In this document: positions 8,836-61,623 of the stretch, piece by piece
Layout: each line of letters starts with the position of its first letter
Numbering within the stretch: the first letter of the stretch is position 1
Made by a program: the position numbers and the translations under genes
The notes under the pieces: model-generated
What the model was told of the DNA's origin: nothing
Seen by the model: only the letters and a program-made list of their open reading frames with translations
The model's database searches: none
Assembly (NCBI RefSeq): GCF_002157895.1
Contig: NZ_CP021377.1
Span: forward strand, 868,001-932,000
Length of the DNA stretch: 64,000 nt
DNA from: Oceanisphaera profunda
GTDB lineage: Bacteria; Pseudomonadota; Gammaproteobacteria; Enterobacterales; Aeromonadaceae
Direction: 5' to 3'

Positions 8836-8863
8836 CTCACGCTTTACTCTTCACCCCTCACGG
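8836..8863 (-). repeat. Class A heptad array downstream of iscX
   Basis: Four 7-bp units on the plus strand: CTCACGC, TTTACTC, TTCACCC, CTCACGG. On the iscX sense strand these read as degenerate GTRARNN units with TGA or TAA in each. The array starts about 13 bp after the iscX stop. Confidence 0.75.
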
Positions 8864-8876
8864 CTAACAGTAGCCG

Positions 8877-9080
8877 TTAATCAAACTCGTCCATCCAAAT
8901 CATAATGATGGCTTCTAAAATATTTTCATTAGAGCGCTTAGGATCATCATCAAAACCGTCTAATTCACAAATCCACTGATGCAGATCCGTAAAACGCACG
9001 GTTTTAGGATCCGTATCCGGATAAGCTTCCAGCAGGTCTAGCGCTATCTCGCGACTATCAGTCCATTTAAGACTCATCAA
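8877..9080 (-). CDS. iscX: IscX, small acidic Fe-S assembly protein
   Basis: This 67-residue acidic protein has the [18 protein letters not shown] start and [17 protein letters not shown] core of the IscX/YfhJ family. IscX binds IscS and iron and tunes cluster assembly. It is the last gene of the isc operon, 7 bp after fdx, as in E. coli. Confidence 0.96.
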
Positions 9081-9087
9081 TAAGCTC

Positions 9088-9426
9088 CTATTGGCTCTCA
9101 GACACCATGTTGACGGTGTACTTAGGGATTTCTACCACTAAGTCTTCGTCAATCATCCGCGTTTGGCAGCCCAACCGCGACTCCGGCTCTAGCCCCCAAG
9201 CTTTATCTAACATGTCATCTTCTAACTCAGTGCTTTCATCCAGCGAGTCAAAACCTTCGCGCACGATAATATGACAAGTGGTACACGCACAGACTTTTTC
9301 ACAGGCATGCTCAATGCCGATACCATTACGCAGAGCTGCATCTAATACCGACTCACCGGGCAAGGCTTCAACTTCGGCGCCCTCTGGGCACAGCTCCGGA
9401 TGAGGCAGAAATACAATCTTGGCCAT
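9088..9426 (-). CDS. fdx: Adrenodoxin-type [2Fe-2S] ferredoxin of the Isc system
   Basis: Electron donor for Fe-S cluster assembly, 112 residues. Cluster cysteines are at 42, 48, 51 ([11 protein letters not shown]) and about 87 (RLGCQT). The C-terminal DEDLVVEIP block matches Isc ferredoxins rather than plant-type ones. It lies 2 bp from hscA and 7 bp before iscX. Confidence 0.97.
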
Positions 9427-9428
9427 AG

Positions 9429-11270
9429 TTACACCTTATCTACTTGTTGTCCGGCCAAGGCCTGACGAATGGAAGCATCCATGCGTCGGGCGGCAAAGTC
9501 AGCCGTTTGTTGGTCTGTTTTCTCGACGGCTTGCTTAATGGCCGCCAAATCGTCACCGCTGGCGGCTTGCGCAAGCAAGTCAACACTGGCCACAATATTG
9601 GCCAGCTCAGATTCATTCAGTAACGCGGCGTCAACGGCCAGCGCACTATTAATATTTTCAATGACGCGTGCCGCTTCTACTTTTTGCTCGGCCAGCATGC
9701 GCGCATCTATGTCGCTTTGGGCATGCTCAAAAGATGCGGTCAGCATTTGGCTGATTTCGGCTTCATCTAAACCATAAGACGGCTTAACTTCGATAGCCGC
9801 TTGTACGCCTGATGACTTCTCCATGGCACTCACAGACAATAAACCGTCAGCATCCACCTGAAAGGTCACTTTAATATGTGCCGCACCCGCTGCCATCGGC
9901 GGAATATTGGTCAAATTAAAGCGTGCTAAAGAGCGACAATCCGCCACCAGCTCGCGCTCGCCTTGGACCACGTGAATGGCCATCGCCGTTTGGCCGTCTT
10001 TAAAAGTGGTAAATTCCTGCGCACGCGCCACCGGTATGGTGGTGTTACGTGGGATTACCTTTTCGACCAAACCGCCCATGGTTTCAAGACCCAACGACAG
10101 CGGGATCACATCCAGCAACAGCATATCGCTATCGGGCTTATTACCAATTAGCACATCTGCCTGAATGGCAGCACCTATGGCAACAACCTTGTCCGGATCC
10201 AAGCTGGTCAATGGCTCGGTGGCAAAAAACTCACCCACGCGCGTGCGCACAAGCGGCACCCGAGTTGAGCCACCCACCATCACCACTTCTTGAACCTCGG
10301 CGGCGGTGACGCCCGCATCTTTTAAGGCGCGGCGACAAGCCACCAAGGTTTTATTCACCCAAGGTAAAATCAGCGCGTCAAATTCATCGCGACTTAAGCT
10401 GCCCTGCCAACCTTGCCAGCTCACTTGCACGGAGTCTTGATCGGTCAGGCTTTGCTTAGCGGCACAGGCCACATCCAGCAAATTACGCTGCTGACTGGGG
10501 CTAAGCTCAGTAAGCTTGGCTTGCTGTTGGATCCAATCTGCCAGCATATGATCAAAGTCATCGCCGCCCAGAGCGGAATCGCCACCGGTGGCCAACACTT
10601 CAAATACGCCGCGATGCAGGCGTAAAATTGAAATATCGAAGGTGCCGCCGCCTAAATCAAATACCGCAATCACGCCCTCTTGGCCTGAGTCCAGACCATA
10701 AGCAATGGCGGCAGCGGTCGGCTCGTTAAGCAGGCGCAATACATTTAAGCCCGCTAATTGCGCCGCATCTTTGGTGCCTTGGCGCTGAGCATCATCAAAG
10801 TATGCAGGCACGGTAATTACCGCACCTTGCACGGGATTGCCTAAGCTTGCTTCGGCGCGTTCAGCCAGCACTTTAAGGATTTCCGCCGACACTTGTACCG
10901 GATTAACCGGTCCTTGCGGAGTGTTTAGGCTGATTAAGCCGTTATCACTTTCATTAAATGCATAAGGTAGGCGATGGCGTGGAATATCAGCCAAGGCTTT
11001 GCCCAGTAAACGTTTAACGGAGGAGATAGTATATTGAGGGTCTTGGTCGGCTTCGCGTTTGGCATCAAAGCCCACCCGCAAGGCTTGCGGGCCGTAGTGC
11101 ACCACAGAGGGCAGCAAGTCACGGCCTTGCTCATCAATCAGGGTTTCGGGCGCGCCGCTACGTACCACGGCCACTAAGGAATTAGTGGTACCGAGATCGA
11201 TGCCCACGGCCCACTTGTGCTCATGCGGTGCCGCGCTTTGGCCCGGCTCAGAAATTTGTAGTAATGCCAT
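9429..11270 (-). CDS. hscA: HscA, Hsp70-type chaperone for IscU cluster transfer
   Basis: Specialised Hsp70 that releases the nascent cluster from IscU with its co-chaperone HscB. The N-terminal ATPase domain shows [23 protein letters not shown] and VGGSTRVP blocks. The substrate-binding domain begins after the [14 protein letters not shown] block, and a helical lid completes the 613 residues. The gene lies 5 bp after hscB in the same operon and is translationally close to fdx. Confidence 0.97.
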
Positions 11271-11275
11271 TAGGG

Positions 11276-11839
11276 TTAGAAGTCCTGCTGCGCATCTTCC
11301 AAACGTTCGAGTTCGGCATGCAGCTTAGTCATGAATTTAAGTTTACGTACCGTATCGGCAGCGGCGTGCCAGTCGGCAGCCGCCAGTTGCTGAGTAAGCT
11401 CGGCATAATACTCGTTCGTCGCCTGCTGCAACTCTTGTTCAAAGGCCATAATGGCGGCAAATATGTCGGCGGCTTCACCCAGCTCTTCGAGCTGCTCACG
11501 CCATTCCATCTGCTGCATTAAAAACAGCGGATCTTTGAGCGTTTGCTGCTCGGCATTAAGCTCGACACCCTGCAAAGACAATAAATATTCGGCGCGGTTC
11601 AGCGGCTGTTTAAGCGTTGTGTAAGCGTCGTTAATATAGGCGGCACGTTGTACCGCCTGCAGACGCTCTCGCTCAGGGTGTGCGGCAAATTTATCGGGGT
11701 GAAACTGCATTTGCAGCCCACGATAAGTCTCGGCTAGGGCTTGGGCGTCTTGCTCAAACTGTGCAGTTAACCCAAACAGCTCAAAGTAATTCATAGTTTG
11801 TGCCGTTTTACCCTGACCTATTGTACCGAGTGCTGTCAT
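11276..11839 (-). CDS. hscB: HscB, J-domain co-chaperone of HscA
   Basis: J-protein that delivers IscU to HscA. The J-domain HPD motif is in QMQFHPDKF, and the C-terminal helical bundle binds IscU. Two starts are possible. ATG at 11794 gives the family-like MNYFELFGL start (172 residues) but has little ribosome-site signal. ATG at 11839 has AGGA 6 nt upstream and adds 15 residues. The longer form is listed because of its ribosome site, while homology favours the shorter one. Confidence 0.9.
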
Positions 11840-11863
11840 GCCAAATCCTATTATGCCAAGCGC

Positions 11864-12187
11864 TTAAACGTTAAAGCTTTCACCGCAACCGCATTCGCCA
11901 TCGGTATTGGGGTTATTGAACTTAAAGCCTTCGTTCAAGCCTTCTTTGGCGAAGTCGAGTTCGGTACCGTTCAGATACACCAAGCTTTTGCTATCGACGA
12001 TCACTTTAACATCGCCATGCTCGAACACTTGATCGCCTTCAGACAGTTCATCGACGAATTCCAGCACATAGGCCAGGCCCGAGCAGCCAGAGGTTTTCAC
12101 CCCTAAGCGTAAGCCTAAGCCTTTGCCTCTGTTGTTCAAGAAAGTCTGCACGCGGTGTGCCGCTGCATCGGTAATGGTGATCGCCAT
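11864..12187 (-). CDS. iscA: IscA, A-type Fe-S carrier protein
   Basis: A 107-residue A-type carrier that moves iron or clusters to target proteins. The three conserved cysteines are visible at 35 (SGCSG) and near the C-terminus in GECGCGESF (about 99 and 101). The length equals that of E. coli IscA. It lies 11 bp after iscU. Confidence 0.96.
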
Positions 12188-12198
12188 GGTGTCTCCGT

Positions 12199-12585
12199 TT
12201 ACGCTAAGTTTTTCTTCTTCTTATAATCGTCGATGGCTGCCTTAATGGCATCCTCTGCCAAAATAGAGCAGTGGATCTTCACCGGCGGCAAAGCCAACTC
12301 TTCGGCAATATCGGTATTTTTGATGCTGCCTGCTTCTTCTAAGCTCTTACCTTTCACCCATTCGGTGATAAGGGAGCTTGAGGCAATCGCCGAGCCACAA
12401 CCGTAGGTTTTGAACTTGGCGTCTTCAATAATACCTGCATCGTTAATTTTAAGCTGCAGCTTCATTACGTCGCCACAGGCCGGTGCACCTACCATGCCAG
12501 TGGCAATGGTGGGGTCGTTTTTGTCAAAACCGCCGACGTTACGGGGGTTTTCATAGTGATCTATTACTTTTTCGCTGTAAGCCAT
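12199..12585 (-). CDS. iscU: IscU, Fe-S cluster scaffold
   Basis: Scaffold on which IscS-derived sulfur and iron form clusters. The protein is 128 residues with cluster cysteines at 37 (GAPACGD), 63 (TYGCGSA) and 106 (LPPVKIHC), the last within the HscA-binding LPPVK motif. The ATG at 12585 ([14 protein letters not shown]) is chosen over an upstream in-frame codon because AGGA lies 7 nt before it and it matches the family start. Confidence 0.97.
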
Positions 12586-12651
12586 GATTTTATCCTCACA
12601 CAATGCTTGATGGTTTAGACGCCATTAGTTTAGGCACCCAGGGGGTACACC

Positions 12652-13866
12652 TTAATGGTGTGCCCATTCCACTTGATCCAAATCTATTCCGTCTTTAAAC
12701 ATTTCCCACAATGGAGACATGTCACGCAGACGGCCAATGGCTTCATTCACCAGTGTAATGGCGTAGTCAATCTGTGCTTCAGTAGTGAAGCGACCGATGC
12801 TAAAGCGAATTGAGCTGTGCGCTAATTCGTCGTTTAAACCTAAAGCACGCAATACATACGAAGGCTCAAGACTGGCTGAAGTACAAGCCGAACCAGACGA
12901 TACGGCTAAGTCTTTCAACGCCATGATCAGTGATTCACCTTCAACATAGGCGAAGCTGATATTCAGGATGCCTGGCACTTTTTGCTCAAGGTGGCCGTTA
13001 ACATACACTTCTTCGATGTCTTTCAGACCGTTATATAAGCGCTGGCGTAAAGCTAAGATACGCTCGCCTTCACTGTGCATTTCTTCTTTAGCAATACGCA
13101 GTGCTTCGCCCATGCCCACAATTTGGTGAGTGGCTAAGGTGCCTGAGCGCATGCCACGTTCGTGACCGCCACCGTGCATCTGTGCTTCTAAGCGCACGCG
13201 GGGCTTGCGCGATACATACAGCGCGCCTATGCCTTTAGGACCGTAAATTTTATGAGCTGAAATCGATAACAAGTCGATATTCATATCATTCACGTCGACG
13301 TCAATCTTACCGACGCTTTGTGCGGCATCAACGTGGAACATGATTTTACGGCTGCGGCATAATTCACCGATCGCTTTCACGTCTTGGATCACACCAGTTT
13401 CGTTATTCACGTGCATGATGCTCACCAAGATGGTGTCGTCACGCATGGCGTTTTCGATTTGTTCAAGGGTAAACAGACCGCTGGACTGAGGCTCTAAATA
13501 GGTAACCTCATAGCCTTCACGCTCTAACTGACGGCAAGGGTCTAATACTGCTTTATGCTCGGTTTTAGAGGTAATAATGTGCTTACCTTTTTTACCGTAG
13601 AAGTTAGCAATGCCTTTGATGGCCAAGTTATCAGACTCGGTGGCGCCAGAGGTAAAGACAATTTCGCGCGGATCCGCATTGATCAAGTCGGCGATTTGAT
13701 TACGGGCGATATCAACCCGCTCTTCTGCCTGCCAACCGAAACGGTGCGAGCGAGAAGCGGGGTTACCAAAAATGCCATCAGGGGTGAGGCATTCCATCAT
13801 CTGTTCGGCAACGCGTGGGTCTACCGGACAGGTAGCCGCATAGTCGAGGTAAATGGGCAGTTTCAT
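12652..13866 (-). CDS. iscS: IscS, cysteine desulfurase
   Basis: PLP enzyme that takes sulfur from cysteine for Fe-S clusters and tRNA thiolation. Its 404 residues equal E. coli IscS. The PLP lysine is at 206 ([10 protein letters not shown]) and the mobile active-site Cys at 328 ([15 protein letters not shown]). It sits between iscR (86-bp gap) and iscU (66-bp gap). Confidence 0.98.
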
Positions 13867-13952
13867 TATATTCTCCGTTACAGCGCTGCTTGTTCGGCAG
13901 TCTTGGCATCGACATTTAACACTAAAGTTAAGCTCAATTGCTGTGGTTCTGG

Positions 13953-14411
13953 TTAATCCAGAGTCAACAGACTTAAGGTATTATCTTGCTGTTCGGGCAC
14001 GCGCCTTTTGGCTTGCTGGCTTACCAGCTCGGCCAAGCTAATGCCTTCTAAAAAATCGCTAATGCGGTCACTTAAAGCGCACCATAAGGTGTGCGTCAGA
14101 CACTGACTGCCGTTATGACAATCGCCCTTACCTTGGCATTTAGTGGCGTCTACGGATTCGTCGACCGCCACTATAATCGCGCCCACCGAAATAGACGCCT
14201 TAGCCATGCCCAGCAAATAACCGCCACCGGGGCCGCGCACACTGCTCACTAAGCCATGTTTGCGCAACCGGGCAAATAATTGCTCAAGGTAAGACAGAGA
14301 AATGCCCTGACGCTCAGAGATATGAGCCAGTGATACAGGTCCTGCATCACCGTGCAAGGCTACATCCAACATGGCTGTTACAGCATAACGCCCTTTTGAT
14401 GTGAGTCTCAT
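13953..14411 (-). CDS. iscR: IscR, Fe-S-sensing Rrf2-family regulator
   Basis: Transcription factor whose [2Fe-2S] form represses its own operon. It has an N-terminal winged helix ([20 protein letters not shown]) and cluster ligands Cys92, Cys98, Cys104 and His107, at the same numbering as E. coli. The 152 residues are slightly shorter than E. coli (162). It heads the isc operon, with two IscR sites just upstream. Confidence 0.97.
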
Positions 14412-14448
14412 CTCGTTCCACCCTTTCTAAATATAGCGTCAGGTTGCC

Positions 14449-14473: not shown

Positions 14474-14474
14474 T

Positions 14475-14499: not shown

Positions 14500-14506
14500 T
14501 ACCCGC

Positions 14507-15226: not shown

Positions 15227-15289
15227 AGCTAGCAAGTCCAAGGGTGCTTAAGGCAAAAGATTCTAGCACAGTCATGGCCCGCTGTAAGC

Positions 15290-15317
15290 GGGATTAGGGA
15301 TTAGGGATTAGGGATTA
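15290..15317. repeat. Perfect heptad array (GGGATTA x4)
   Basis: Four exact copies of GGGATTA. On the nlpI sense strand this reads TAATCCC, with TAA in each unit. The plus strand also carries TAG across each unit junction. It lies past the nlpI terminator, in the 261-bp nlpI-trmJ gap. Confidence 0.95.
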
Positions 15318-15338
15318 GTCTTTGCGCTCTTATCTGTT

Positions 15339-15361: not shown

Positions 15362-15385
15362 AGCTCTTCGTCTTAAGCTTTACTT

Positions 15386-15413
15386 GGCGCTGGGCGCTTG
15401 GAGCCGGGCGCTA
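15386..15413 (-). repeat. Class B heptad array downstream of nlpI
   Basis: Four 7-bp units on the plus strand: GGCGCTG, GGCGCTT, GGAGCCG, GGCGCTA. Read on the nlpI sense strand it starts TAGCGCC, the class B signature, and runs on to AAGTAAA. Confidence 0.75.
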
Positions 15414-15431
15414 TGTTTTGACCTTACCAAT

Positions 15432-20942: not shown

Positions 20943-21006
20943 GGTGAGGAGTGAGGTGTAACACAACGCCACGCCTCACACTTTACTATTTACGCCTCAC
21001 GCTTCG
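20943..21006 (-). repeat. Class A heptad arrays at the queA 3' end
   Basis: Plus-strand units CGCCTCA, CACTTTA, CTATTTA, CGCCTCA, CGCTTCG at 20972-21006 keep exact 7-bp spacing and run into queA. The QueA end KREA-stop is encoded by the same heptads. A second, oppositely written set (GGTGAGG, AGTGAGG, TGTAACA) lies at 20943-20963. Confidence 0.78.
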
Positions 21007-22819: not shown

Positions 22820-23401
22820 ATGAACTATTTGGCGCACTTGCATCTGGCGCATATTAGCCACACCAGCTTAGCCGGCGCTCTATTAGGGGAATACGCCAAA
22901 GGCCAAATAGACACCCAGTTAGCACCCGAACTGCAACTGGGTATTCGACTGCATCGCCAGATTGACAGTTTTACCGATGCCCATCCGCTGCATCTTGGGG
23001 CAGTGCAAGCCATGCCTAGCCCCTTTCGCCGCTATGGCGGCATTATCATGGACATGATGTTTGATCACTTTCTGGCGCGTTTTTGGCATCGTTATCATGA
23101 GCAAACGCTACAAGATTTTATTGATGGGGCTCACCGGCAATTAATACCCGATGCCCAGTGGCCTGGCGCAATGGTGACGCTGGTGGCGCGCATGCAGCAA
23201 TATCAACTGCTCGCCAGCTATCAAACTCTAGACGGTATTAGTCTGGCTCTTTCTCGCATCGACCAGCGCTTTCGCCGCCCTACGCCCCTGCCCCAATGCG
23301 CGCCGTTATTACACGACCATTATCATGATATGGAACAGGCCTTTCTCGGCTTCTACCCCGAGCTGATGGAGTTTGTGATCGCGAAAGCGCGTGAGGCGTG
23401 A
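22820..23401 (+). CDS. acpH: ACP phosphodiesterase AcpH
   Basis: AcpH removes the 4'-phosphopantetheine arm from acyl carrier protein. The 193 residues equal E. coli AcpH in length. The MNYLAHLHLAH start, the RLHRQIDSFTDAHP block and the MMFDHFLARFW block carry the His/Asp metal residues. It follows the CBS gene closely on the plus strand. The C-terminal AREA and the TGA stop come from the first units of a nine-copy GTGAGGC array, so copy-number change would leave the protein intact. Confidence 0.92.
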   Translation: MNYLAHLHLAHISHTSLAGALLGEYAKGQIDTQLAPELQLGIRLHRQIDSFTDAHPLHLGAVQAMPSPFRRYGGIIMDMMFDHFLARFWHRYHEQTLQDFIDGAHRQLIPDAQWPGAMVTLVARMQQYQLLASYQTLDGISLALSRIDQRFRRPTPLPQCAPLLHDHYHDMEQAFLGFYPELMEFVIAKAREA

Positions 23402-23460
23402 GGCGTGAGGCGTGAGGCGTGAGGCGTGAGGCGTGAGGCGTGAGGCGTGAGGCGTGAAAA
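23391..23460 (+). repeat. Class A heptad array, nine perfect GTGAGGC copies
   Basis: Nine exact GTGAGGC units at 23391-23453 and a final GTGAAAA. The first unit encodes the end of AcpH and the second supplies its stop. Every unit contains TGA. Because of the 7-bp period, three successive units put TGA in all three frames. This is the longest perfect array in the window and a likely site of slippage between strains. Confidence 0.97.
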
Positions 23461-23696
23461 AATAACCACTAGATATTTTTTCGCCACGGAATACACGGAA
23501 GAACACGGAAAAATAGTGATCAGATTTGAAAGTGAAAGGCAGCTCCGAGCATCAAGCGTTAAGCACCAAGCTGAACAAAGGGCGGTGTTTATATGTTAGC
23601 TCGGTGCTGGGCGCTTAGCGCTAGTTACTACTACTGCGTCCGTGCGCTCCGTGTTCTTCCATGGCAAAAATAGCTTTATGTTTGTACTTGCCATCC
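23461..23696. other. Mosaic repeat island between acpH and the kinase gene
   Basis: No gene is present. It holds, in order: a GCCACGGAATACACGGAAG block (23481-23507), a class B heptad array on the plus strand (AGCTCCG, AGCATCA, AGCGTTA, AGCACCA, AGCTGAA; 23541-23575), a second class B array on the minus strand (TAGCGCT, AAGCGCC, CAGCACC, GAGCTAA; 23596-23623), and an inverted copy of the CCACGGAA block (about 23637-23675). The outer blocks form an inverted pair. Confidence 0.7.
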
Positions 23697-23724
23697 TCTT
23701 CACGCTTTACCCCTCACTCTTCAC
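23697..23724 (-). repeat. Class A heptad array at the kinase gene 3' end
   Basis: Plus-strand units TCTTCAC, GCTTTAC, CCCTCAC, TCTTCAC in exact 7-bp register. On the kinase sense strand they read GTGAAGA, GTGAGGG, GTAAAGC, GTGAAGA and encode the protein end KSEG plus its TAA stop. Confidence 0.85.
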
Positions 23725-25554
23725 AGCTACCTTAGGATTGGCCGGATAGAAGTAATCGGGCTGTACTGCTTGGCTGTTAAAGAAACGGGTATTTTTATGG
23801 GGCAATTTCATAAAGCCGGCCACGCCTTGATCTGTGATTTCAGGGATCAGCGCCACCACTTGTGCCAGCAAGGCGGCAAAGTCTGTTTCTGCGCGAACGT
23901 CGAGCAGCCGATAATAACTGTGCAACTTCAGATGCAGATCCGTGACTTCAAAAATAATGCAGCCACTGTGATGAATATCATTGAGCCTAGCGAGCACCGC
24001 CATCATAGGCGCGGGCAAAGTAAGCTGTTCATCAGGGTCTCGGCCATCTTCAAAATAGGAATGCTGGCGACTGGCATCCGCAGGGCTGGCATGGGTCGCT
24101 AAGCGATAAGCGAGTTGCATATCAGCGCTAGGCTGAAAAGGCTGACTGGCGTCAGCGCGGCTTAAGTGCAGCGTATTGCGCGCATTAAACAAGCAGGCTT
24201 TAAACAAGCCCACTTTGGTGATGCCTTGCGCCAACTTCACCACATTATTGACCGCTTGGGTAAAGGCCAGCTCCAGCTCGGCATCATATAAATTCAAGCT
24301 AGAGTCGATATACAGACCATCCTCTTGCCACTGCACCACCAGCCCGCCCATTACCGGATAACGGCCTAGACGACTGACGGCGGCCAAAAAGGCTTTTTCA
24401 CCGTCACCCATGCCCGCCAAGTAATTTTTATAATAACGCGCTAACTGAGCATCATTAATATCGAGCAGCAAGCTGGGCTGGTCTTGCTCGGCTAAGGATT
24501 CCCGTAAAAAAGAAGTGCGTGACGAATAGACCACTGTGTCCATGGCAGAAGCATTTGAGCTCACCCACACTGGCAGCTCGGCCTGAAGCTTGGGCTGTGC
24601 TAATTCTGGCAACACTAAGTGCTGTAACCGCGCCATGGACTGCATAAAATAATCCCCGGCTTGGCGGCGCAGCTTAGGATCTGGCGCTAATAAGCCATCT
24701 AGCATCAGCGCCAGCTCTTTGGGCAGGCCTAAGCTGCGCGCGGGCAACACGGCTTGGCCAAAGCGACACCCCTGGCCCGAGGCCAAGGCATACAAGGTGG
24801 CCGCCACCCCTTGTTCATCAAAGCGCGGGTTAGATAAAGCGCCGGATCTTTGCTCTGCACCAATAAAGTAAATATCTCCTAAGCGAGCATTAGTGTGTTG
24901 CAAGTCCGCCGACATTAGTTGCATCACATTGCTTGAAACACACTGCCCCTGACTGTCGGTTTGGGCAAACACCGACGAGCCCCAATCCACTAGGCAGATG
25001 CGATTAGTGTTGGCATCAAACACAATATTTGAGGGCTTAATATCACCGTGTACTATGGGCCGCTGTTGGCCATCTTGTTGTTGGTCGCGTAGCATCTGCA
25101 AAATATCGACCAGCTGCACGCCAATATCCACAACTTGTCGGGCCGATAATCGACCGACGCGTAAGCTGTATTGCTCCAAGTCTAAGCCCTGTGCCCGGCT
25201 CATCATTAAAATGCCTTGTTTCTTAATGCGTTTATAAGTGATGAAACGCGGCACCCTAGGGTGATGCACTTGCGACAACATATAGGCTTCATCGGCGAGG
25301 CGTTCCCGCACCGCAAGCGCCAAGGTAATGCGAGAAAACTTAAAGGCATACTCTTGGCCCGATTCAGCCCAGCCAGCAAAGGTAAAGCCGTAGGCCCCTT
25401 GGCCCACAAGCTGAATATGCTGATAGCCTAAGCCCTCTAACTTGGCGATACAGAGTGCTATCCAGTCTTTGAGCTTTTTGGCATCACCCGCATTGAGCAA
25501 ATACATCGACTGCTCTTCTGGAATATAAAAATTGTCTAGCCGATGCGCATCCAT
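23707..25554 (-). CDS. Eukaryotic-like protein kinase with an unassigned C-terminal half
   Basis: A 615-residue protein. The N-terminal kinase domain spans about 45-310, with the glycine loop GQGAYG (51-56), Lys72 (AFKFSR), Glu89, catalytic HGDIKPSN (169-176) and metal motif DWG (190-192) in place of DFG. The Arg before the catalytic Asp is replaced by Gly, so it is a non-RD kinase. No membrane helix is seen. Residues 330-615 match nothing I recognise and may be a sensory or substrate domain. It is 120 bp downstream of the bkd E2 gene on the same strand and could be co-expressed. Its substrate is unknown. Confidence 0.8.
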   Translation of the reverse strand: MDAHRLDNFYIPEEQSMYLLNAGDAKKLKDWIALCIAKLEGLGYQHIQLVGQGAYGFTFAGWAESGQEYAFKFSRITLALAVRERLADEAYMLSQVHHPRVPRFITYKRIKKQGILMMSRAQGLDLEQYSLRVGRLSARQVVDIGVQLVDILQMLRDQQQDGQQRPIVHGDIKPSNIVFDANTNRICLVDWGSSVFAQTDSQGQCVSSNVMQLMSADLQHTNARLGDIYFIGAEQRSGALSNPRFDEQGVAATLYALASGQGCRFGQAVLPARSLGLPKELALMLDGLLAPDPKLRRQAGDYFMQSMARLQHLVLPELAQPKLQAELPVWVSSNASAMDTVVYSSRTSFLRESLAEQDQPSLLLDINDAQLARYYKNYLAGMGDGEKAFLAAVSRLGRYPVMGGLVVQWQEDGLYIDSSLNLYDAELELAFTQAVNNVVKLAQGITKVGLFKACLFNARNTLHLSRADASQPFQPSADMQLAYRLATHASPADASRQHSYFEDGRDPDEQLTLPAPMMAVLARLNDIHHSGCIIFEVTDLHLKLHSYYRLLDVRAETDFAALLAQVVALIPEITDQGVAGFMKLPHKNTRFFNSQAVQPDYFYPANPKVAVKSEG

Positions 25555-32887: not shown

Positions 32888-32925
32888 ACTGGTGTCTACT
32901 TTAGTCGGGCCATTCCACTCTCCAA

Positions 32926-32957
32926 CCTACTACCTACTACCTACTACCTACTACCTA
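32926..32957. repeat. Heptad array CCTACTA x4.5 beside the IS right end
   Basis: Four exact CCTACTA units and a partial fifth, starting 9 bp beyond the IS. The minus strand carries TAG in each unit. The adjacent ahpC promoter region starts after it. Confidence 0.92.
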
Positions 32958-33695: not shown

Positions 33696-33750
33696 GCCGT
33701 ACTGAAGTCTCACCTCAGCCGCACTTAGGCCGTACTTAAGCCGAACTCAA
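33696..33750 (+). repeat. 11-bp tandem repeat directly after the ahpC stop
   Basis: Five 11-bp units: GCCGTACTGAA, GTCTCACCTCA, GCCGCACTTAG, GCCGTACTTAA, GCCGAACTCAA. Three of them contain a stop triplet. The first base follows the TAA stop. Confidence 0.8.
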
Positions 33751-33763
33751 GATGCTAACGCCT

Positions 33764-35379: not shown

Positions 35380-35417
35380 CAGCGCCGAGCGCCCGGCACC
35401 AAGCGCCTAGCTTAAAG
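35376..35417 (+). repeat. Class B heptad array at the ahpF stop
   Basis: Units CTAGCAG, CGCCGAG, CGCCCGG, CACCAAG, CGCCTAG, CTTAAAG in exact 7-bp register. The first contains the ahpF stop codon. Confidence 0.82.
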
Positions 35418-35554: not shown

Positions 35555-35594
35555 TTCAGCTTGGTGCTAGGCGCTGGGCGTTGCGGTTAAGCTA
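35555..35594 (-). repeat. Class B heptad array at the yejK stop
   Basis: Plus-strand units TTCAGCT, TGGTGCT, AGGCGCT, GGGCGTT, GCGGTTA, ending at the CTA that is the yejK stop (TAG). On the yejK sense strand it reads TAGCTTA...CGCCCAG, CGCCTAG, CACCAAG, CTGAA. Confidence 0.72.
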
Positions 35595-40974: not shown

Positions 40975-41811
40975 ATGATAGTTGACATCAATGTACAGAA
41001 TTTTCAGCAAGCGTTAATTGACGCCTCCATGGCTAAAACCGTGGTGATTTTCTTTCATGCAGAGGCAGTGCCCGAATGCCTAGCCATGAGCCCAGTGCTG
41101 GAAAGACTGATTGGCGACCATCACGCCCAACTGGATTTAGCCCGTGTCGACGTAGCAGACCCCCAACTGCAAAGCTTGGCCTCGCAATTAGGCCTGCGCG
41201 CGTTGCCGGCTATGGTGGCCTTTAAAGACGGTCAACCGGTAGATGTGTTAGAAGGCCCCCAAGACGAAGCGGCCATTACCAACTTCTTAGCGCCCTACCA
41301 GCCCAACGAGGCGGAGTTATTGCTGGATGAAGCCAAGCAGACCCTAGGCACTGACCCACAAGCGGCCTATGGCCTGTTACAGCAAGCTCGCGCCCTAGAA
41401 GACAGCCCAGCTATTCGCCTTTACTTGGCGGAAGCGGCGCTGGCCTTAAATAAGCTGGAAGAAACCAAGCAATTACTCGCCAGCATCGGCATGGCGGATC
41501 AAGATAGCCAATATCAGCATATTTTGGCGCGTTTAGAGCTGGCAGAAGAAGCTGCCGATAGCCCAGAGATCCGTGAATTAGAAGAAAAGCTGGCCGCAGA
41601 GCCTGAGTCCTTGAGCTTAAAAGAAGAATTGGCAGTGCAGTTATTTCAAGCGGGTCGCCAAGAAGAAGCGTTGCAATTACTGGTCAGCGTATTGCAAAAA
41701 GATCTGGCCTTTGGTGATGCCAGAAAACACTTCTTAGATATGTTGATCACCTTAGGCGCAGACCCTATTGCCTCAACTTATCGCCGCAAGCTATACAGTA
41801 TGCTTTATTGA
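40975..41811 (+). CDS. cnoX: CnoX/YbbN-type thioredoxin-TPR chaperone
   Basis: The 278-residue protein has a thioredoxin fold at 1-108 without a redox CxxC (the site reads AVPEC) and TPR-like helices from about 112 to the end. CnoX in E. coli holds unfolded proteins under hypochlorous stress and cooperates with GroEL. The cis-Pro loop LRALPAMVAF is kept. The TGA stop is followed by a class B heptad array. Confidence 0.88.
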   Translation: MIVDINVQNFQQALIDASMAKTVVIFFHAEAVPECLAMSPVLERLIGDHHAQLDLARVDVADPQLQSLASQLGLRALPAMVAFKDGQPVDVLEGPQDEAAITNFLAPYQPNEAELLLDEAKQTLGTDPQAAYGLLQQARALEDSPAIRLYLAEAALALNKLEETKQLLASIGMADQDSQYQHILARLELAEEAADSPEIRELEEKLAAEPESLSLKEELAVQLFQAGRQEEALQLLVSVLQKDLAFGDARKHFLDMLITLGADPIASTYRRKLYSMLY

Positions 41812-41815
41812 GTAA

Positions 41816-41857
41816 TAGCGCCCGACGCCCAGCACCAAGCGCCGAGCTAAAATAGAG
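41816..41857 (+). repeat. Class B heptad array after cnoX
   Basis: Units TAGCGCC, CGACGCC, CAGCACC, AAGCGCC, GAGCTAA, AATAGAG in exact register, 5 bp after the stop. This is the clearest example of the TAGCGCC...AGCTAA layout. Confidence 0.85.
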
Positions 41858-41868
41858 CAAAACCGGAT

Positions 41869-41892
41869 CCTGACTTTCGTCAGGAAGACGGC
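41869..41892. repeat. 24-bp palindromic repeat, copy 1
   Basis: CCTGACTTTCGTCAGG followed by AAGACGGC. It fits the consensus CCTGAYKTYCRTCAGG-AAGRCGGC shared with copies at 43401 and 46481. Confidence 0.8.
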
Positions 41893-41896
41893 AGAA

Positions 41897-41929
41897 AAAA
41901 GCCCCGCACCTTCTAGGTGTGGGGCTTTT
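41897..41929. terminator. Bidirectional terminator between cnoX and the NSS transporter gene
   Basis: Stem AAAAGCCCCGCACCT / AGGTGTGGGGCTTTT with a TCT loop, between convergent genes. Confidence 0.9.
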
Positions 41930-41931
41930 GT

Positions 41932-41968
41932 TTAGCTGGGCGCCGGGCGCTCGGCCCTCGGCGCTAGT
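41932..41968 (-). repeat. Class B heptad array at the NSS transporter stop
   Basis: Plus-strand units TTAGCTG, GGCGCCG, GGCGCTC, GGCCCTC, GGCGCTA. On the gene's sense strand it reads TAGCGCC...CAGCTAA, starting 2 bp after the TAA stop. Confidence 0.82.
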
Positions 41969-46539: not shown

Positions 46540-46559
46540 CTATCTTGATTGCTTTCCTT

Positions 46560-46587
46560 GGCGCTAGGCGCTTGGTGCTCGGCGCTA
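46560..46587 (-). repeat. Class B heptad array at the TlpA-like gene stop
   Basis: Plus-strand units GGCGCTA, GGCGCTT, GGTGCTC, GGCGCTA. The last CTA is the gene's TAG stop codon, so on the sense strand the stop opens the TAGCGCC unit. Confidence 0.85.
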
Positions 46588-48217: not shown

Positions 48218-48250
48218 AAAAACCAAGCCTACAGCAGGCTCGGTTTTTTT
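48218..48250. terminator. Bidirectional terminator between the DUF2069 and ABC permease genes
   Basis: Stem AAAAACCAAGCCT / AGGCTCGGTTTTT (one mismatch) with a 5-nt loop and T runs on both strands. Confidence 0.85.
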
Positions 48251-48280
48251 ACGCCTCACTATTTACACCCCACTCCTTAC
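48246..48280 (-). repeat. Class A heptad array at the ABC permease (HisM-like) stop
   Basis: Plus-strand units TTTTTAC, GCCTCAC, TATTTAC, ACCCCAC, TCCTTAC, each ending in TAC or CAC. The sense-strand reading starts GTAAGGA, which includes the gene's TAA stop, and carries TAA or TGA in most units. Confidence 0.78.
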
Positions 48281-48969
48281 GATCTGGGCTGTAAATGCTT
48301 GGACCAGCGATTTTCTAGGCGACGAAAGCCCCACACTAGAACAAAGGTTAAGCACATGTATAACAAGCCAGCGGCCAAGAAGGCTTCAAAGGGCGAGTAA
48401 TAACGGGAGTTAACAATGCGGGCCGCGCCCGTTAAATCGCCAATGGTGATGATCCCCGCCACGGCTGAGCCGTGCAGCATAAAAATCACCTCATTACTGT
48501 ACGCCGGTAAGGCACGACGAAACGAGTTAGGTAATATAATGCGGCGCAAGGTGGTGAATTTACTCATGCCATAGGCATAGGCCGCCTCCACTTGGCCCCT
48601 AGGCATACCATTAATGGCGCCGCGAATAATCTCCGCCGTATAGGCGCTGGTGTTTAAGGTAAAAGCTAAAATGGCACAAAACCATGCCTGACTAAATAAC
48701 TCCCAAGCGATGGACTCCCGTAGCCACTGCCATTGACCAGCGCCGTAATAAATAAGAAACAGCTGCACCAATAACGGCGTGCCACGGAAGAAATAAATAT
48801 AGGCCCACGCTGGCGCCTTAAGCAGCCAATGGTGACTATTACGCAAGATGGCCAGCGGCACGGCAATCACTAAGCCAATCACCAAAGACACGGCCACTAG
48901 CCACACAGTGGTGTAAAAACCCTGCCAATAGGTGGGCCACTCGTTAGCGATAATCGTTAAATCCATCAT
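48277..48969 (-). CDS. Basic amino acid ABC transporter permease, HisM-like
   Basis: A 230-residue inner-membrane permease of the HisM/GlnP family with about five helices and the EAA-loop (EAAYAYGMSKFTTLRRIILPNSFRRALPAYSNEVI) that docks to the ATPase. It pairs with the upstream HisQ-like subunit (19-bp gap). The set ATPase-binding protein-HisQ-HisM resembles aot/his/art systems for arginine, ornithine, lysine or histidine. Confidence 0.9.
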   Translation of the reverse strand: MMDLTIIANEWPTYWQGFYTTVWLVAVSLVIGLVIAVPLAILRNSHHWLLKAPAWAYIYFFRGTPLLVQLFLIYYGAGQWQWLRESIAWELFSQAWFCAILAFTLNTSAYTAEIIRGAINGMPRGQVEAAYAYGMSKFTTLRRIILPNSFRRALPAYSNEVIFMLHGSAVAGIITIGDLTGAARIVNSRYYSPFEAFLAAGLLYMCLTFVLVWGFRRLENRWSKHLQPRS

Positions 48970-50639: not shown

Positions 50640-50700
50640 CTGATTCAACTATCCCGTTATTTAACTGTTCACTATTCAACTATTCACTTATTCAATACGG
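50640..50700 (-). repeat. 7-8-bp repeat tract after the ABC ATPase gene
   Basis: On the minus strand after the TAG stop it reads TTGAATA, AGTGAATA, GTTGAATA, GTGAACA, GTTAAATA, ACGGGATA, GTTGAATC. Most units hold TGA or TAA. Spacing alternates between 7 and 8 bp. Confidence 0.6.
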
Positions 50701-57627: not shown

Positions 57628-57642
57628 CAGCGTTTAGAATAC

Positions 57643-57669
57643 AAAAAACCGGCCGCGGCCGGTTTTTTT
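57643..57669. terminator. Bidirectional terminator between ycaO and the DsbA-like gene
   Basis: Perfect palindrome AAAAAACCGGCCGCGGCCGGTTTTTT between convergent genes. Confidence 0.92.
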
Positions 57670-57707
57670 ATGTCTAACCCATAAGCTTAAATTAGGCAGC
57701 GTACCTT

Positions 57708-58442
57708 TTAAGATTTTTTATCTTTCAAGATGTCTTTCAAACCCGCCACGTCCACAGCACCAGGGATCAAGGTGCCATCAGGGAACACCAAGGCTGGAGT
57801 GCCATTTAGGCCGAGGCTTCTGAACAAGCTTAGGTTTTGATTAAGCTTATCTGAGATTTTTTTATCGTCAGCCGCCGCCAATAAAGTCTTGCTGTCTAAG
57901 CCGGCTTTATCGGTAATGCTGGCCAAGGCGGCCGTAGACACTTTCTTTTGGCTCATCAGCGCTTGATGCAGCTCAGCATACTGGCGAGGTGCCTCCATGG
58001 CCGTGGCCAACGCTAAGCGCGCCGCTTGTACTGAGTCTGGGCCTAAAATGCCTAAGTCTTTAACGATAATTTTTAGCTCTGGCTCGTCTTTGATAAGCGT
58101 CAGCAGCGTTTGGTTCATACGATGGCAATAAGGGCAGTTATAGTCGGTGAAATACACCACAGCTAGCTTGCCGTTAGGGTTACCTAAAACACCATCGGTT
58201 TTACTGGAAAACAGCTGCTTGGACTGCTGCTTAAGCTGCTTAGAAAATTCAGCTTGGCTCGCCAGCTGATCTTTTTCTTCGAGCTTGATAATGGCTTCGC
58301 GCAAAATTTCTGGCTGCTCAAGCAAGGTTTCACGCACCAGCTTTTGAAACTCAGCTTTGCTCATCTCAGCCTGAGCGGGGGCTGCAGATAATAGGCCTAG
58401 GGCTAAAATAGGCGCCAAGGCAGGTAAGAACTTAACGGTCAT
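57708..58442 (-). CDS. Periplasmic DsbA/ScsC-like thiol-disulfide oxidoreductase
   Basis: A 244-residue exported protein (signal peptide to about 25, PAQA) with an N-terminal helical segment (about 27-75) like the oligomerisation stalk of ScsC/Com1, then a DsbA-type thioredoxin fold. The active site is CPYC (Cys103, Cys106) and the cis-Pro loop is NGTPALVFPDG. The stalk suggests a disulfide isomerase-like role over a pure oxidase. It stands near an orphan CbiM-like gene and no DsbD is adjacent. Confidence 0.85.
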   Translation of the reverse strand: MTVKFLPALAPILALGLLSAAPAQAEMSKAEFQKLVRETLLEQPEILREAIIKLEEKDQLASQAEFSKQLKQQSKQLFSSKTDGVLGNPNGKLAVVYFTDYNCPYCHRMNQTLLTLIKDEPELKIIVKDLGILGPDSVQAARLALATAMEAPRQYAELHQALMSQKKVSTAALASITDKAGLDSKTLLAAADDKKISDKLNQNLSLFRSLGLNGTPALVFPDGTLIPGAVDVAGLKDILKDKKS

Positions 58443-58509
58443 CAGCGTCTCACATAAAAAGGATGAAAAGGCAGCCTACCAGAGATACAGGTAGCGCTGG
58501 AAGCTTATA

Positions 58510-59133
58510 TTACTTATTAATAATATAATCGCGATCCCGATAGGTGCACACCCAGTCAGGCTTAAACAGCACCAGCACGGTAATCGCCATGCCGTTGAGT
58601 AAGGCTTCTGGGAACAATAATAAAGGCAGCACGCTCAGGTAGTTATCAACCACTACTTGCCAGCTATGTTGGTCAGTCCACACCATAAATCCCGAAAACA
58701 GCAAGGTTTTAAGGGTAATGGTCAAAGCGGCATTAAAAAAGCCAGCCACGAAGATATAGACAAATAAATGGCGGTATAAGTAGCTGTAAGTTAACAAAAA
58801 CAATAGATAGCTAGCACTGAGCGGTATTATCACACCCAACAATAGATTCGGCCCGAACATCGGCCAAGATTCAAAGCCAAAAGCGGTGACCAGCAACAGG
58901 CTTAAGCTGCTCATCATCAATCCCATGCGCCAACCTAGCAGCAGCGCCAGGGTCGTTAATCCCAAAAAATGCACCTCTAAGCCTGGTTTTACGCCCGCTT
59001 GCAGCATCCATAATGGCACTAGGGCAATGGCGGCACCAAAACATAGGTGATGCCGAGTCTTATCACCCAACCAAGTTCGCCAATCAAAGCTCCAAGCCGC
59101 GCCGAGCAGCACTAAAATGCCTATGATAATCAC
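58510..59133 (-). CDS. Orphan CbiM-like energy-coupling-factor permease protein
   Basis: A 207-residue polytopic membrane protein. The block GVKPGLEVHFLGLTTLALLLGWRMGLMM resembles the N-terminal VHFLG region of CbiM/NikM, the substrate-specific subunit of cobalt/nickel ECF importers. The GPNLLLGVIIPLSASYLL and PEALLNGMAITVLVLFKPDWV blocks fit the same family. The usual CbiM N-terminal metal-binding start (MHI...) is missing, and no CbiQ or CbiO gene is adjacent. Metal transport is therefore doubtful. Confidence 0.72.
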   Translation of the reverse strand: MIIIGILVLLGAAWSFDWRTWLGDKTRHHLCFGAAIALVPLWMLQAGVKPGLEVHFLGLTTLALLLGWRMGLMMSSLSLLLVTAFGFESWPMFGPNLLLGVIIPLSASYLLFLLTYSYLYRHLFVYIFVAGFFNAALTITLKTLLFSGFMVWTDQHSWQVVVDNYLSVLPLLLFPEALLNGMAITVLVLFKPDWVCTYRDRDYIINK

Positions 59134-59568
59134 TGTCTGCTCCTATCTTGCTCGACTATTTACCACTATTTATCCATAACGAATACCATAAATAGTACCT
59201 CAGCTTGCCGAATATTTGTATGTGCATAACGGTATCAAAGCGCGAACTATCACTCTTAAGTCAGGCACTCACTAGACAAAAATCCCCACTCAATAACAGG
59301 ACTCTTGAGTAGATACTCTGTTGGGCGTCAAGAGTTAGCTTTAGGCCGCTCTGTGCTCTGTTGCTATGCACTTTATTCAGTCGTTGCGAGCGTAGTGCGG
59401 CAATCCATACTACAGCGGCGCGGTGCATAGCCATAGATTGCCGCGTCGTTGCACTCCTCGCAATGAACCAAGGTGAGGGTTTAGCTCTCGCCTTGGGTAG
59501 TTGAGTCTGTTCGGTAAAATAAGGCTGGGCTAACTTAGATGGCTACTTAACCAAGCTAAGGATGCGGA
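59134..59568. other. Gene-free stretch with an inverted repeat
   Basis: A 435-bp gap between the CbiM-like and DUF3108 genes. Its middle holds the inverted repeat at 59382-59466. Nothing else is recognised. Confidence 0.6.
59382..59466. repeat. CATTGCGAGG-type inverted repeat
   Basis: Left arm CGTTGCGAGCGTAGTGCGGCAATCC and right arm (inverted) CATTGCGAGGAGTGCAACGACGCGGCAATC are related and face each other across about 27 bp. A partial arm occurs at 15339-15361. Confidence 0.8.
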
Positions 59569-60264
59569 TCATTTTACTAACGTATAGTTGAGCTTACTTA
59601 AGGTTACGGTCACCGAAAGCTGACGGTTTTCATCATGGCTAATTTGCACCAGTTGATAATCCAGTTTTGGTGCCACCCAAAAGCGGGTTTTACGCTTACT
59701 GTTACCGCGATCGCGCTCTACGATCAGGCTTTCATAAGGGCCAATGCCAGTGTTGACGATTTCTTTGCCTACCACCTTAAAGGTGGTCATTTTAATTTCG
59801 CCGTCGCGCGCCACCGGATAAGTAAGCGTGGTTTTACCGGCCATTAAATCGCAACGCGCCTCAAAGAAAAAGCTGACCGGATCAAAAGCCCCCTCTTTGA
59901 TGGGCACTAACTTATCGCCATCTTTATCCTGAAACAGCACCATCTTAGTCTTTTGATCAAAGACCAAACGATCTTCATTACGGGTGCCTAAGTATTTGGT
60001 TTTATAGCTAAAGGTTTGCGGAGTGGCGTTACAGTTTTTCCAAGTAAAACTGGCTTTTTGATCCACATCTAACAACCAGTGGGCCAGAGAAAAATGCACG
60101 TTATAGCGATCGTTATTACGATCGATTTTTAAGGTGTTCACGCCACGAGTCTTATCACCGTTGAGTATCACGCTGTATTCAGCGCTTAAATGATCAATAT
60201 CTTGTGCGAAGGCAGAGGCACTGGCGAACACTGCAGCCAGTAACCATAAAAGGTGTTTGGTCAT
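59569..60264 (-). CDS. DUF3108 periplasmic protein
   Basis: The protein is 231 residues from ATG 60264, with AGGAA 6 nt upstream; the in-frame ATG at 60270 is too close to that site. A signal peptide ends at about residue 21 (SAFAQ). The rest is beta-rich, with DPVSFFFEARCDLMAGKTTLTYPVARDGE and RKTRFWVAPKLDYQLVQIS blocks of DUF3108. Its function is unknown. Confidence 0.82.
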   Translation of the reverse strand: MTKHLLWLLAAVFASASAFAQDIDHLSAEYSVILNGDKTRGVNTLKIDRNNDRYNVHFSLAHWLLDVDQKASFTWKNCNATPQTFSYKTKYLGTRNEDRLVFDQKTKMVLFQDKDGDKLVPIKEGAFDPVSFFFEARCDLMAGKTTLTYPVARDGEIKMTTFKVVGKEIVNTGIGPYESLIVERDRGNSKRKTRFWVAPKLDYQLVQISHDENRQLSVTVTLSKLNYTLVK

Positions 60265-60694
60265 GGTCATTTCCTTATCAGTGATGCCTATCTAGGCAAC
60301 AGCCGGTATAGTGAAGGTGTAAATGTATTGAAGATCGAAAGTTCTTAATAAGATGAGCTTATTGAATTTACTCTTTTTATACCTTAATTTTTTACGCTCA
60401 GCATTTTCTAGCTTAAGCACTTCTGCATAGAGCAAGCTTTGTACCCACCATACACCAACTCAGCCCCCCAAAGAAAACGCCATCATGGTCACCACCAAAT
60501 CAGTGCGTCTATTGCTGGCCATTGGGCATTATTTTGCAGCGTACTGCGCTTGCGGCTGTAAATATCCTAGCATTACCTGACTGGATCACGAAAATCGTGC
60601 CCGCGGGTTCTCAGTTTGGGTGTAAGGTCTTATGATAACACCACATTATACTTATTTTGCTCAACCGCAGACCGCCCCAAGGACGCAACTACTT
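60265..60694. other. Gene-free divergent region upstream of the response-regulator gene
   Basis: About 430 bp with no supported gene other than a possible 21-codon upstream extension of the regulator (ATG at 60632). No repeat array was seen. Confidence 0.5.
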
Positions 60695-61327
60695 ATGGAT
60701 ACAGGCTATCGCATTATCATTGCCGATGATCACCCCTTGTTTCGTAATGCGCTGCACTTAGCGGTTACCCAAGCCGTCCCCGATGTTCAATTGCAAGAAG
60801 TGGACTGCATCGAACAGTTAATGCAGTTATTAGCTGAGCAAGGTGAAGTGGATTTATTATTGCTGGACTTAAAAATGCCAGGCGCCAGCGGATTTTCTGC
60901 ATTGGCAAGCTTGCGCCATCTTTACCCTGATCTGCCGGTGGTCATGGTCTCGGCTACAGAAGAACACGCCGTGGTTCAGCAAGCCATGCATTTTGGCGCC
61001 ATGGGTTTTATTCCTAAATCGACGCCGCTGCCGGCTTTGGTGGCCGCCTTGCATGCTATTTTAGCGGGAGATACGTGGTTTCCTGCCGGCGTGAGTCTGT
61101 CGGCCGCGCCCGCCGATAATATTGCTGAACGCTTAGCCAGCCTTACGCCCCAGCAATTTAAGGTGCTTACTATGTTGTCTGAGGGCAAGTTAAACAAGCA
61201 AATAGCCTTTGAGCTCAGCGTCTCCGAAGCCACCGTTAAAGCCCACGTCACCGCCATTTTTCGCAAACTCAACGTCCAAAATCGTACCCAAGCGGTGATC
61301 GCCATGTCACAAATTGGTGAAGGGTGA
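60695..61327 (+). CDS. LuxR/NarL-family response regulator, CrbR-like
   Basis: A 210-residue regulator. The receiver domain (5-120) has Asp11/Asp12, phospho-acceptor Asp58 (LLLLDLKMPG) and the VVMVSATEE switch. The LuxR-type helix-turn-helix (about 145-205) has LTPQQFKVLTMLSEGKLNKQIAFELSVSEATVKAH. ATG at 60695 fits the domain start, though AGGA is 11 nt away; ATG at 60632 would add 21 residues. It faces a hybrid kinase with a transporter-like N-terminus, the CrbS/CrbR pairing. Its last residues GEG and stop are encoded by heptads. Confidence 0.85.
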   Translation: MDTGYRIIIADDHPLFRNALHLAVTQAVPDVQLQEVDCIEQLMQLLAEQGEVDLLLLDLKMPGASGFSALASLRHLYPDLPVVMVSATEEHAVVQQAMHFGAMGFIPKSTPLPALVAALHAILAGDTWFPAGVSLSAAPADNIAERLASLTPQQFKVLTMLSEGKLNKQIAFELSVSEATVKAHVTAIFRKLNVQNRTQAVIAMSQIGEG

Positions 61328-61343
61328 GGGGTAAAGCGGAAGA
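61316..61343 (+). repeat. Class A heptad array at the response-regulator stop
   Basis: Units GGTGAAG, GGTGAGG, GGTAAAG, CGGAAGA in exact 7-bp register. The TGA of the second unit is the gene's stop codon. Confidence 0.8.
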
Positions 61344-61547
61344 GATTAAAGATTTTTTTGCCACAAAATACACGGACGAAAAAATATTATGAGTAAGCGC
61401 AAAAGCGGCGGCTAGATTTTTGTAGGCGAACTCTTGTTCTCGCATTTCGCCGAAGGCGGAACGGGTTAAGGCTATCAGGGCTAAGGCGAAAAGAGCGCGC
61501 TCAGCGCCAAACGCCCACAAAGAGAAGATAAAAACACCGCTCCTAAA

Positions 61548-61596
61548 AACTGGTGTTTACTTCAGTCTGGAATGCCTCCAGTCGGGCCATTTCCAT
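61548..61596. mobile_element. Decayed IS3-family right end
   Basis: AACTGGTGTTTACTTCAGTC...GGGCCATTTCCA matches the right end of the IS at 32887-32917 with a few changes, interrupted by a 16-bp insertion TGGAATGCCTCCAGTC. The insertion itself begins like the IS tip TGGAATG and duplicates AGTC. No transposase remains. Confidence 0.72.
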
Positions 61597-61623
61597 CTTT
61601 ACTATTCCCTATTCACACCTCAC
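61596..61623 (-). repeat. Class A heptad array after the hybrid kinase gene
   Basis: Plus-strand units TCTTTAC, TATTCCC, TATTCAC, ACCTCAC. The sense-strand reading (GTGAGGT, GTGAATA, GGGAATA, GTAAAGA) starts 4 bp after the TAA stop. Confidence 0.75.

Follow-up and report, generated by a model that had tools for sequence, protein, structure and literature searches.

Short tandem arrays with a period of seven nucleotides, standing behind stop codons, were confirmed as a real feature of the genome of Oceanisphaera profunda. They were examined in a stretch of 64,000 nucleotides (hereafter the window; bases 868001-932000 of the 3.509 Mb contig NZ_CP021377.1) together with 60 further stretches of 20 kb, i.e. 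1.264 of 3.509 Mb (36%), where 1017 genes were called with a home-made gene caller; overall, 36-40% of the genome was tested for arrays. The account put forward here, to which we give a probability of roughly 0.4, is that these arrays would be the heptamer arms of rapidly changing inverted repeats located at gene 3' ends.

The period was clear-cut. At a score of at least 12, lag 7 yielded 39 intergenic arrays and none in coding DNA, compared with 0-8 intergenic and 0-10 coding arrays for lags 4-6 and 8-13, and 0-0.3 arrays in shuffled intergenic DNA. Lag-7 identity peaked in the first 20 nt past stops (0.349 in convergent and 0.315 in codirectional regions); the signal was absent before starts (0.257 and 0.251). 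Likewise, at score 8 arrays were found at 68 of 690 3' ends versus 12 of 704 5' ends. When no limit was set on position, 48 of the 108 arrays in stop-containing regions (44%) lay within 8 nt of the stop, against 6% under random placement, and 60 within 16 nt, against 12%; the higher value of 60/64 (94%) within 16 nt comes from an array set that had been pre-limited to 30 nt. Near starts, 2 of 72 arrays were within 8 nt (random 4%). The enrichment after stops relative to other intergenic DNA, expected in a preliminary description of the window, was thus borne out. Its suggestion that such repeats are tolerated only behind stops held in part: arrays were few in divergent regions (12/149, versus 53/138 convergent and 61/348 codirectional regions), yet just the 60 of 108 mentioned above stood within 16 nt of a stop. 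Seven is the dominant but not the sole period, since the window also contains two imperfect arrays of other periods, one of 8/16 (50643-50695) and one of 11 (33717-33751). Other dispersed repeats, e.g. CGAGATCCTGACGTGCGTCAGGATGACGGC, GCCACGGAATACACGGAAGAACACGG and CCAATTTATTCGGC, were common in the sampled intergenic DNA.

Arrays had been announced at 18 named gene ends. They occurred at or near 13 of them (iscX, nlpI at 75 nt from the stop, queA, acpH, the kinase gene, ahpF, yejK, cnoX, the NSS transporter, the TlpA-like gene, the hisM-like gene, the response regulator and the hybrid kinase), the criterion in the window being at least three units of one family, or two for GGGATTA. The CBS and perM ends displayed two units each, and the ends taken as yejM, bepA and the hisP-like gene had no period-7 array, one of them carrying the period-8/16 array; yejM, perM, bepA and the his-like genes were assigned to open reading frames from size and order, without a search. 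The exact or near-exact spacing also described was found in three exact window arrays (15290-15318, 23389-23457 and 32925-32957), the remainder being imperfect.

Four unit families were distinguished, namely A (AGCRCCN), B (GTRARKN), C (TGTTGAA/TTTTTAA) and D (GGGATTA), defined on the same sample in which they were then counted. Mixed arrays were strings of differing variants of one unit, and A units recurred at many loci; the constancy of some unit positions is partly built in because the search patterns fixed those positions beforehand. A scan of 699 3' ends, with a minimum of three units, gave 56 B, 42 A, 6 C and 2 D sense labels and 4 B, 1 A and 1 C antisense labels, while reversed 3' ends, used as a control, gave 5 B, 2 antisense B, 2 D and 1 antisense C. 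Arrays were short: 23 of the 42 A arrays had four units and 17 had three, and among the 56 B arrays 22 had four, 18 three and 12 five. Orientation was strongly biased, with 78 sense and 2 antisense among the 80 (out of 128) A and B arrays located within 20 nt of a stop. Antisense forms dominated before starts (12 B and 8 A antisense versus 3 B and 0 A sense at 712 5' ends). The shared orientation of the preliminary description applied to A and B arrays near stops, and its stop triplets on the sense strand of the upstream gene to family B, but not to the exact ACCTACT array at 32925-32957, whose stop triplet is antisense.

The exact GCGTGAG arrays followed another pattern: the five below 1.18 Mb are all on the plus strand, and the seven above 1.757 Mb all on the minus strand (12/12, p=0.0005; one of them in the window). 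dnaA is located at 1.655 Mb and the GC skew, mostly negative before, becomes positive between 1.714 and 1.752 Mb; expansion of these exact arrays may be tied to fork direction. As a general rule, replication-set orientation was rejected: in imperfect A and B arrays orientation goes with gene sense, and several of the 21 long arrays of all families run opposite. Regional clustering of families was also discarded (neighbours 30 same versus 25 different).

A second regularity concerned pairs. Among the 138 convergent regions, 85 had no array, 29 had one, 22 had two, one had three (B>A<B<) and one four (B>B<A<B<). The 22 with two comprised 11 B>B<, 9 A>A<, one A<B< and one B<A<. The 348 codirectional regions included 41 with one array, facing pairs of types B>B< (8), A>A< (3), D>D<, B>A< and A>D< (one each), i.e. 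12 single-family and 2 mixed, and 6 other combinations; the 149 divergent regions included 10 with one array and 2 facing pairs. Convergent regions labelled at both ends (17) displayed 9 B/B, 7 A/A, one B with antisense B and no A/B combination, so that all 16 sense/sense pairs were matched in family (p=2e-5). In codirectional regions the facing arrangement is informative too. Both A (n=42, p=3e-4) and B arrays (n=54, p=2e-5) were more complementary to their own downstream DNA than to the downstream DNA of array-less genes. Eight compact A-core-A units of 61-114 nt were present in the sample, some sharing a similar core.

Comparison with congeners suggested that the position of the repeats is steadier than their sequence, since sister species can carry another seven-base motif at the same ends. 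Congener G014 was 92-95% identical across matched window DNA. At 138 orthologous 3' ends, neither species had an array in 98 cases, 11 were occupied in O. profunda only, 6 in G014 only and 23 in both. Twelve of these 23 were called as different-family, and nine remained after reading by eye had set aside 835195, 854003 and 1069483, against 2.4 expected by chance (p=3e-5). Congener units identified by reading were TACGCNN, TCAGCTR, GGAAGCT and GGGANTR. Between ahpF and yejK, reading showed a terminator-like hairpin flanked on either side by family A in O. profunda, and TACGCNN on both sides in G014 and, in degenerate form, in G017. Between queA and tgt, family B was read on both sides in O. profunda and GGGANTR on both sides in G015, G003 and G009. 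Seven convergent regions held arrays of families A-G in both species: B-/B-, A-/A-, BB/BB and -E/FE were vertical or nearly so, AA/-A was a loss, and AA/EE and -B/EE completed the set; two further rows of the same nine-row comparison were B-/A- and -C/BB. Twenty clean gaps of at least 18 nt were recorded in 136 orthologous regions of one species pair, those at arrays being of 42 nt and 21 nt plus one aligned as 20 nt; two arrays thus differed in length between close species by a multiple of seven (42 and 21 nt). In G014, insertions of 298 and 475 nt opposite positions 935693 and 981714 of O. profunda hold a unit resembling a miniature inverted-repeat transposable element (MITE), with inverted ends CCTGATTAC ... 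GTAATCAGG.

These data are consistent with the arrays being short heptamer repeats that reside at the 3' ends of genes, in many cases paired as facing arms of the same family that would flank the intergenic region. The recurrence of unit variants at many loci suggests exchange among dispersed arrays of one family, and the places where arrays are missing point to selection against them in coding and promoter DNA. Within a pair, a post-stop arm would read one way in gene sense and a pre-start arm the other way, and part of the strand bias would follow from this pair geometry. Single arms may be pairs that lost, or never gained, their partner. The stop triplets would simply be part of the B unit and be of consequence, if at all, only where an array overran the coding end. 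At the RNA or the DNA level, the two arms of a matched pair could form a long, imperfect hairpin, by analogy with 3' hairpins of the repetitive extragenic palindrome (REP) type.

Several observations weigh against this account. Two sense arrays behind converging stops are bound to face each other, so that family match, not facing, is what informs in convergent regions. Units within a pair were no more alike than across pairs (14.2 versus 15.3 for 13 A pairs, 12.2 versus 12.2 for 22 B pairs), which argues against selection for exact pairing; for the same reason, and with limited power, copying from arm to arm was rejected. Single arrays made up 29 of the 53 array-bearing convergent regions, 41 of 61 codirectional and 10 of 12 divergent ones; single arms being as common as pairs, pairing accounts for part of the arrays only. 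For arrays without a called partner, a hidden complement was not apparent in family A (n=15, p=0.29; n=13, p=0.36) and was weak in family B (n=20, p=0.007; n=16, p=0.04). Mixed-family regions (B>A<B<, A<B<, B>A<, A>D<) exist. In G010 the two sides bore differing families at both loci read, with GGAAGCT and TCAGCTR between ahpF and yejK, and a TACG-type unit and GGGANTR between queA and tgt. Pairing is weakened by the single arms, by the A arrays lacking a complement and by the mixed sides in G010. A terminator was found at 24 of 64 array ends versus 190 of 593 other ends, the array preceding it in 24/24 cases. Finally, the account explains neither the tight placement behind stops nor the sense strand kept by single arms.

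Other explanations were weighed against the same data. Plain slippage repeats devoid of function, where polymerase slippage favours period 7 and selection clears arrays except behind stops, would fit the lack of coding arrays, their scarcity in divergent regions, the length changes of 42 and 21 nt and the single orientation per replichore of the exact GCGTGAG arrays (5 plus, 7 minus); slippage is also the cause put forward in work that PMC4679880 cites, as far as the excerpt of that article goes. We regard it as a serious candidate but an unlikely one, because slippage alone predicts neither the placement within 8 nt of stops nor the sense strand, nor the family match of converging ends, nor imperfect arrays built of recurring unit variants (their fixed positions being partly set by the search pattern). 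That the arrays are terminal inverted repeats of non-autonomous mobile elements inserting behind stops seems rather unlikely. Facing same-family arms, the compact A-core-A units, some with a similar core, A units at many loci and the nesting inside other repeats at 23401-23706 all speak for such elements. Yet none of the 20 clean gaps in the 136 orthologous regions of the one species pair corresponded to an inserted two-armed array (target duplications were not searched systematically), and insertion as a two-armed element was rejected for lack of a clean case. Two of the long insertions in the gap comparison share conventional MITE-like ends, G017 has a similar terminator but no A arrays at the place of 41811-41968, and unit order is not shared within pairs. 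The matching of pairs in family but not in units, the differences in family between species that affect both flanks at ahpF-yejK and queA-tgt and the excess of ends shared by different families would suit a writing process that puts heptamer arrays at gene ends, on both flanks per event, from a family-specific template. We hold this to be improbable: no enzyme or template is known, none was sought, single arms are common, and the two sides differ in G010. A related idea, speculative and clearly unlikely in our view, is that certain 3' ends are marked sites where an unknown process writes arrays, often on both sides of a terminator at once, with units drawn freely from the grammar of one family per event, to be overwritten by another family in sister lineages; if this were true, the site would be inherited and the sequence disposable.

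The preliminary description proposed that the arrays back up translation termination by offering a stop in each frame. This interpretation was partly supported, as far as the triplets are concerned: stops in each sense frame were found in 54/56 B and 4/6 C arrays, but in 0/42 A arrays, although the latter share the same place and strand. Antisense stops were nearly absent from B arrays (0.02 per 28 nt). In 19 of the 56 B arrays the array begins within the coding end and therefore covers the gene's own stop. Every frame met a stop within 25 nt at 31% of 64 array ends versus 12% of 551 others; by type, at 46% of 28 non-A array ends, 19% of 36 A-type ends and 12% of array-less ends. Primary stop use was the same (TGA in 9/64 ends with arrays versus 89/593 without), revealing no link to leaky stops. 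The rotating stop therefore belongs to the B and C units and is not a placement rule. Stop backup was rejected as a general rule, and as an explanation of the arrays we judge it very improbable; the excerpt of a survey of eubacteria likewise reports no selection for additional stops (PMC6764699). G-quadruplex elements, as proposed for heptamers of Xanthomonas and Nostoc, share the placement, and the 3-5 units mostly seen here may be set beside the four preferred there, according to the excerpt of PMC4692102. Four-tract G3 motifs, the only type counted, were observed on the sense strand in 0/42 A, 0/56 B, 0/6 C and 1/2 D arrays, and on the antisense strand in 1/42 A arrays. G3 quadruplexes are refuted for families A and B, and as an account of the arrays at large they appear extremely improbable.

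Within the window, the arrays were distributed as follows, the names iscX, acpH, cnoX and hybrid kinase being those of the preliminary description. A B array of four units (8834..8861, minus strand) lies 15 nt past the stop of gene 8877-9080 (iscX). The exact GGGATTA array of about four units (15290..15318, plus) is flanked by two minus-strand genes and lies 170 nt away from the stop of nlpI, and an A array of four units (15385..15412, minus) stands 75 nt past that stop, beyond a terminator-like hairpin; NlpI was identified by search, as was QueA. A four-unit B array (20973..21000, minus) overlaps the queA stop by 11 nt, with a facing B arm 15 nt further. A B array of ten units with nearly exact GCGTGAG (23391..23460, plus; exact array 23389-23457) overlaps the stop at 23401 of acpH, and a four-unit B array (23697..23724, minus) overlaps the stop of the kinase gene 23707-25554 by 18 nt. 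Nested within this B pair are two facing A arms with a short core (23541..23622), which in G014 are replaced by other sequence. By reading, the region 23401-23706 displays B arms outermost, CACGGA-type arms next and the facing A arms with their core in the centre. The acpH protein (22820-23401) is 72-83% identical to Oceanisphaera loci and 68-71% to Zobellella, and the kinase gene gave matches to MAD6 and PglW defence kinases far under curated cut-offs.

Further along, the exact ACCTACT array (32925..32957, plus) is located behind an IS3-family transposase gene (stop 32887). An A array of four units (35381..35408, plus), 1 nt past the ahpF stop, faces one of three units (35562..35582, minus), 9 nt past the yejK stop. 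Two A arrays of four units also face each other at 41817..41844 (plus; 5 nt past the stop of the thioredoxin-like gene cnoX) and 41938..41965 (minus; 3 nt past the stop of the sodium-dependent transporter gene). A four-unit A array (46559..46586, minus) overlaps the stop of the TlpA-like gene by 2 nt and is 21 nt shorter in G014; a B array of five units with two mismatches (48246..48280, minus) overlaps the stop of gene 48277-48969. Finally, a three-unit B array (61317..61337, plus), whose overlap with the stop of the response regulator gene is 11 nt, faces a B array of four units with one mismatch (61596..61623, minus), 4 nt past the stop of the hybrid kinase gene at 61628.

Outside O. profunda, the A pattern was restricted to 10 of 61 genomes (its own, eight congeners and one from another family), and the backwards control gave 4 matches in one genome and none in the other 60. 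The B pattern was present in 26 of 369 gammaproteobacteria, representing 24 of 272 genera; its backwards control matched often because a rotated B unit can match the control. Array-bearing 3' and 5' ends numbered, respectively, 14/140 and 7/136 in G014, 9/84 and 1/94 in other congeners, 2/51 and 0/73 in named Oceanisphaera loci, 0/42 and 0/59 in Zobellella, 1/170 and 0/189 in 18 other gammaproteobacteria labelled as lacking B (12 searched for B, 6 for A only), 2/166 and 4/177 in Bacteroidota and others, and 21/202 and 15/209 in seven distant B-bearing genomes; one set of these stretches had mostly been picked near B matches. A clear preference for stops is thus seen in part of the genus, and a weak one in the distant B-bearing genomes.

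Tandem heptanucleotides are typical of the short tandemly repeated repetitive sequences (STRR) of filamentous cyanobacteria, and the Oceanisphaera arrays share this architecture. REP palindromes, their bacterial interspersed mosaic elements (BIME) and bacterial MITEs are short dispersed intergenic inverted repeats, sometimes nested; REP elements are further characterised by a tagged palindrome and an associated transposase. O. profunda likewise has short dispersed intergenic inverted repeats, some of them nested, but their arms are tandem heptamers with free unit order, and no two-armed empty site was seen in the one species pair compared. The excerpts consulted name REP/BIME and MITEs (PMC4692102), mention heptamer-derived satellites for bacteria (PMC6749651) and cite a survey in which heptanucleotides were the top class of 5-11 nt repeats in most genomes (PMC4679880).

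The closest precedents were described one unit at a time. According to the excerpt of Rehm et al. 2015 (PMC4692102), GGGNATC heptamers of Xanthomonas and Nostoc are mostly intergenic and few between divergent genes; downstream repeats are mostly on the coding strand at no more than 50 bp from the stop, which some of them overlap, and those before starts are on the noncoding strand. Facing pairs numbered 70 and 75 in Xanthomonas and were few in Nostoc, and 83% of Xcc repeats recurred in the same context in Xac. The Oceanisphaera arrays resemble this class in being intergenic, near the stop on the coding strand, often in facing pairs and rare in divergent regions. Unlike it, they comprise several families, A and B without a G3 motif, and congeners differ in family at the same gene end. 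The TAACTGA heptamers of Beggiatoaceae, as excerpted from MacGregor 2015 (PMC4679880), contain stops in all three frames, and 13 overlap the stop of the upstream gene; most are located just upstream of start codons, with one unit dominant. Most B and C arrays of O. profunda are comparable intergenic heptamers with three-frame stops, whereas its arrays stand behind stops and family A lacks such stops. The pattern that the preliminary description believed to be unreported was therefore already documented in these two articles; among the matches listed, none described interchangeable families of heptamers at the ends of genes.

What is new with respect to these precedents is the occurrence of several interchangeable families, of pairs matched in family but not in units, and of gene ends re-occupied by another family. 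The ideas advanced in the excerpted reports were specific to the unit (quadruplex, regulator site). In the present genome, place, strand and approximate length are common to unrelated units, so that the placing agent should not depend on the unit, and the presence of other families at the same ends within a single genus makes the origin of the arrays testable with close strains.

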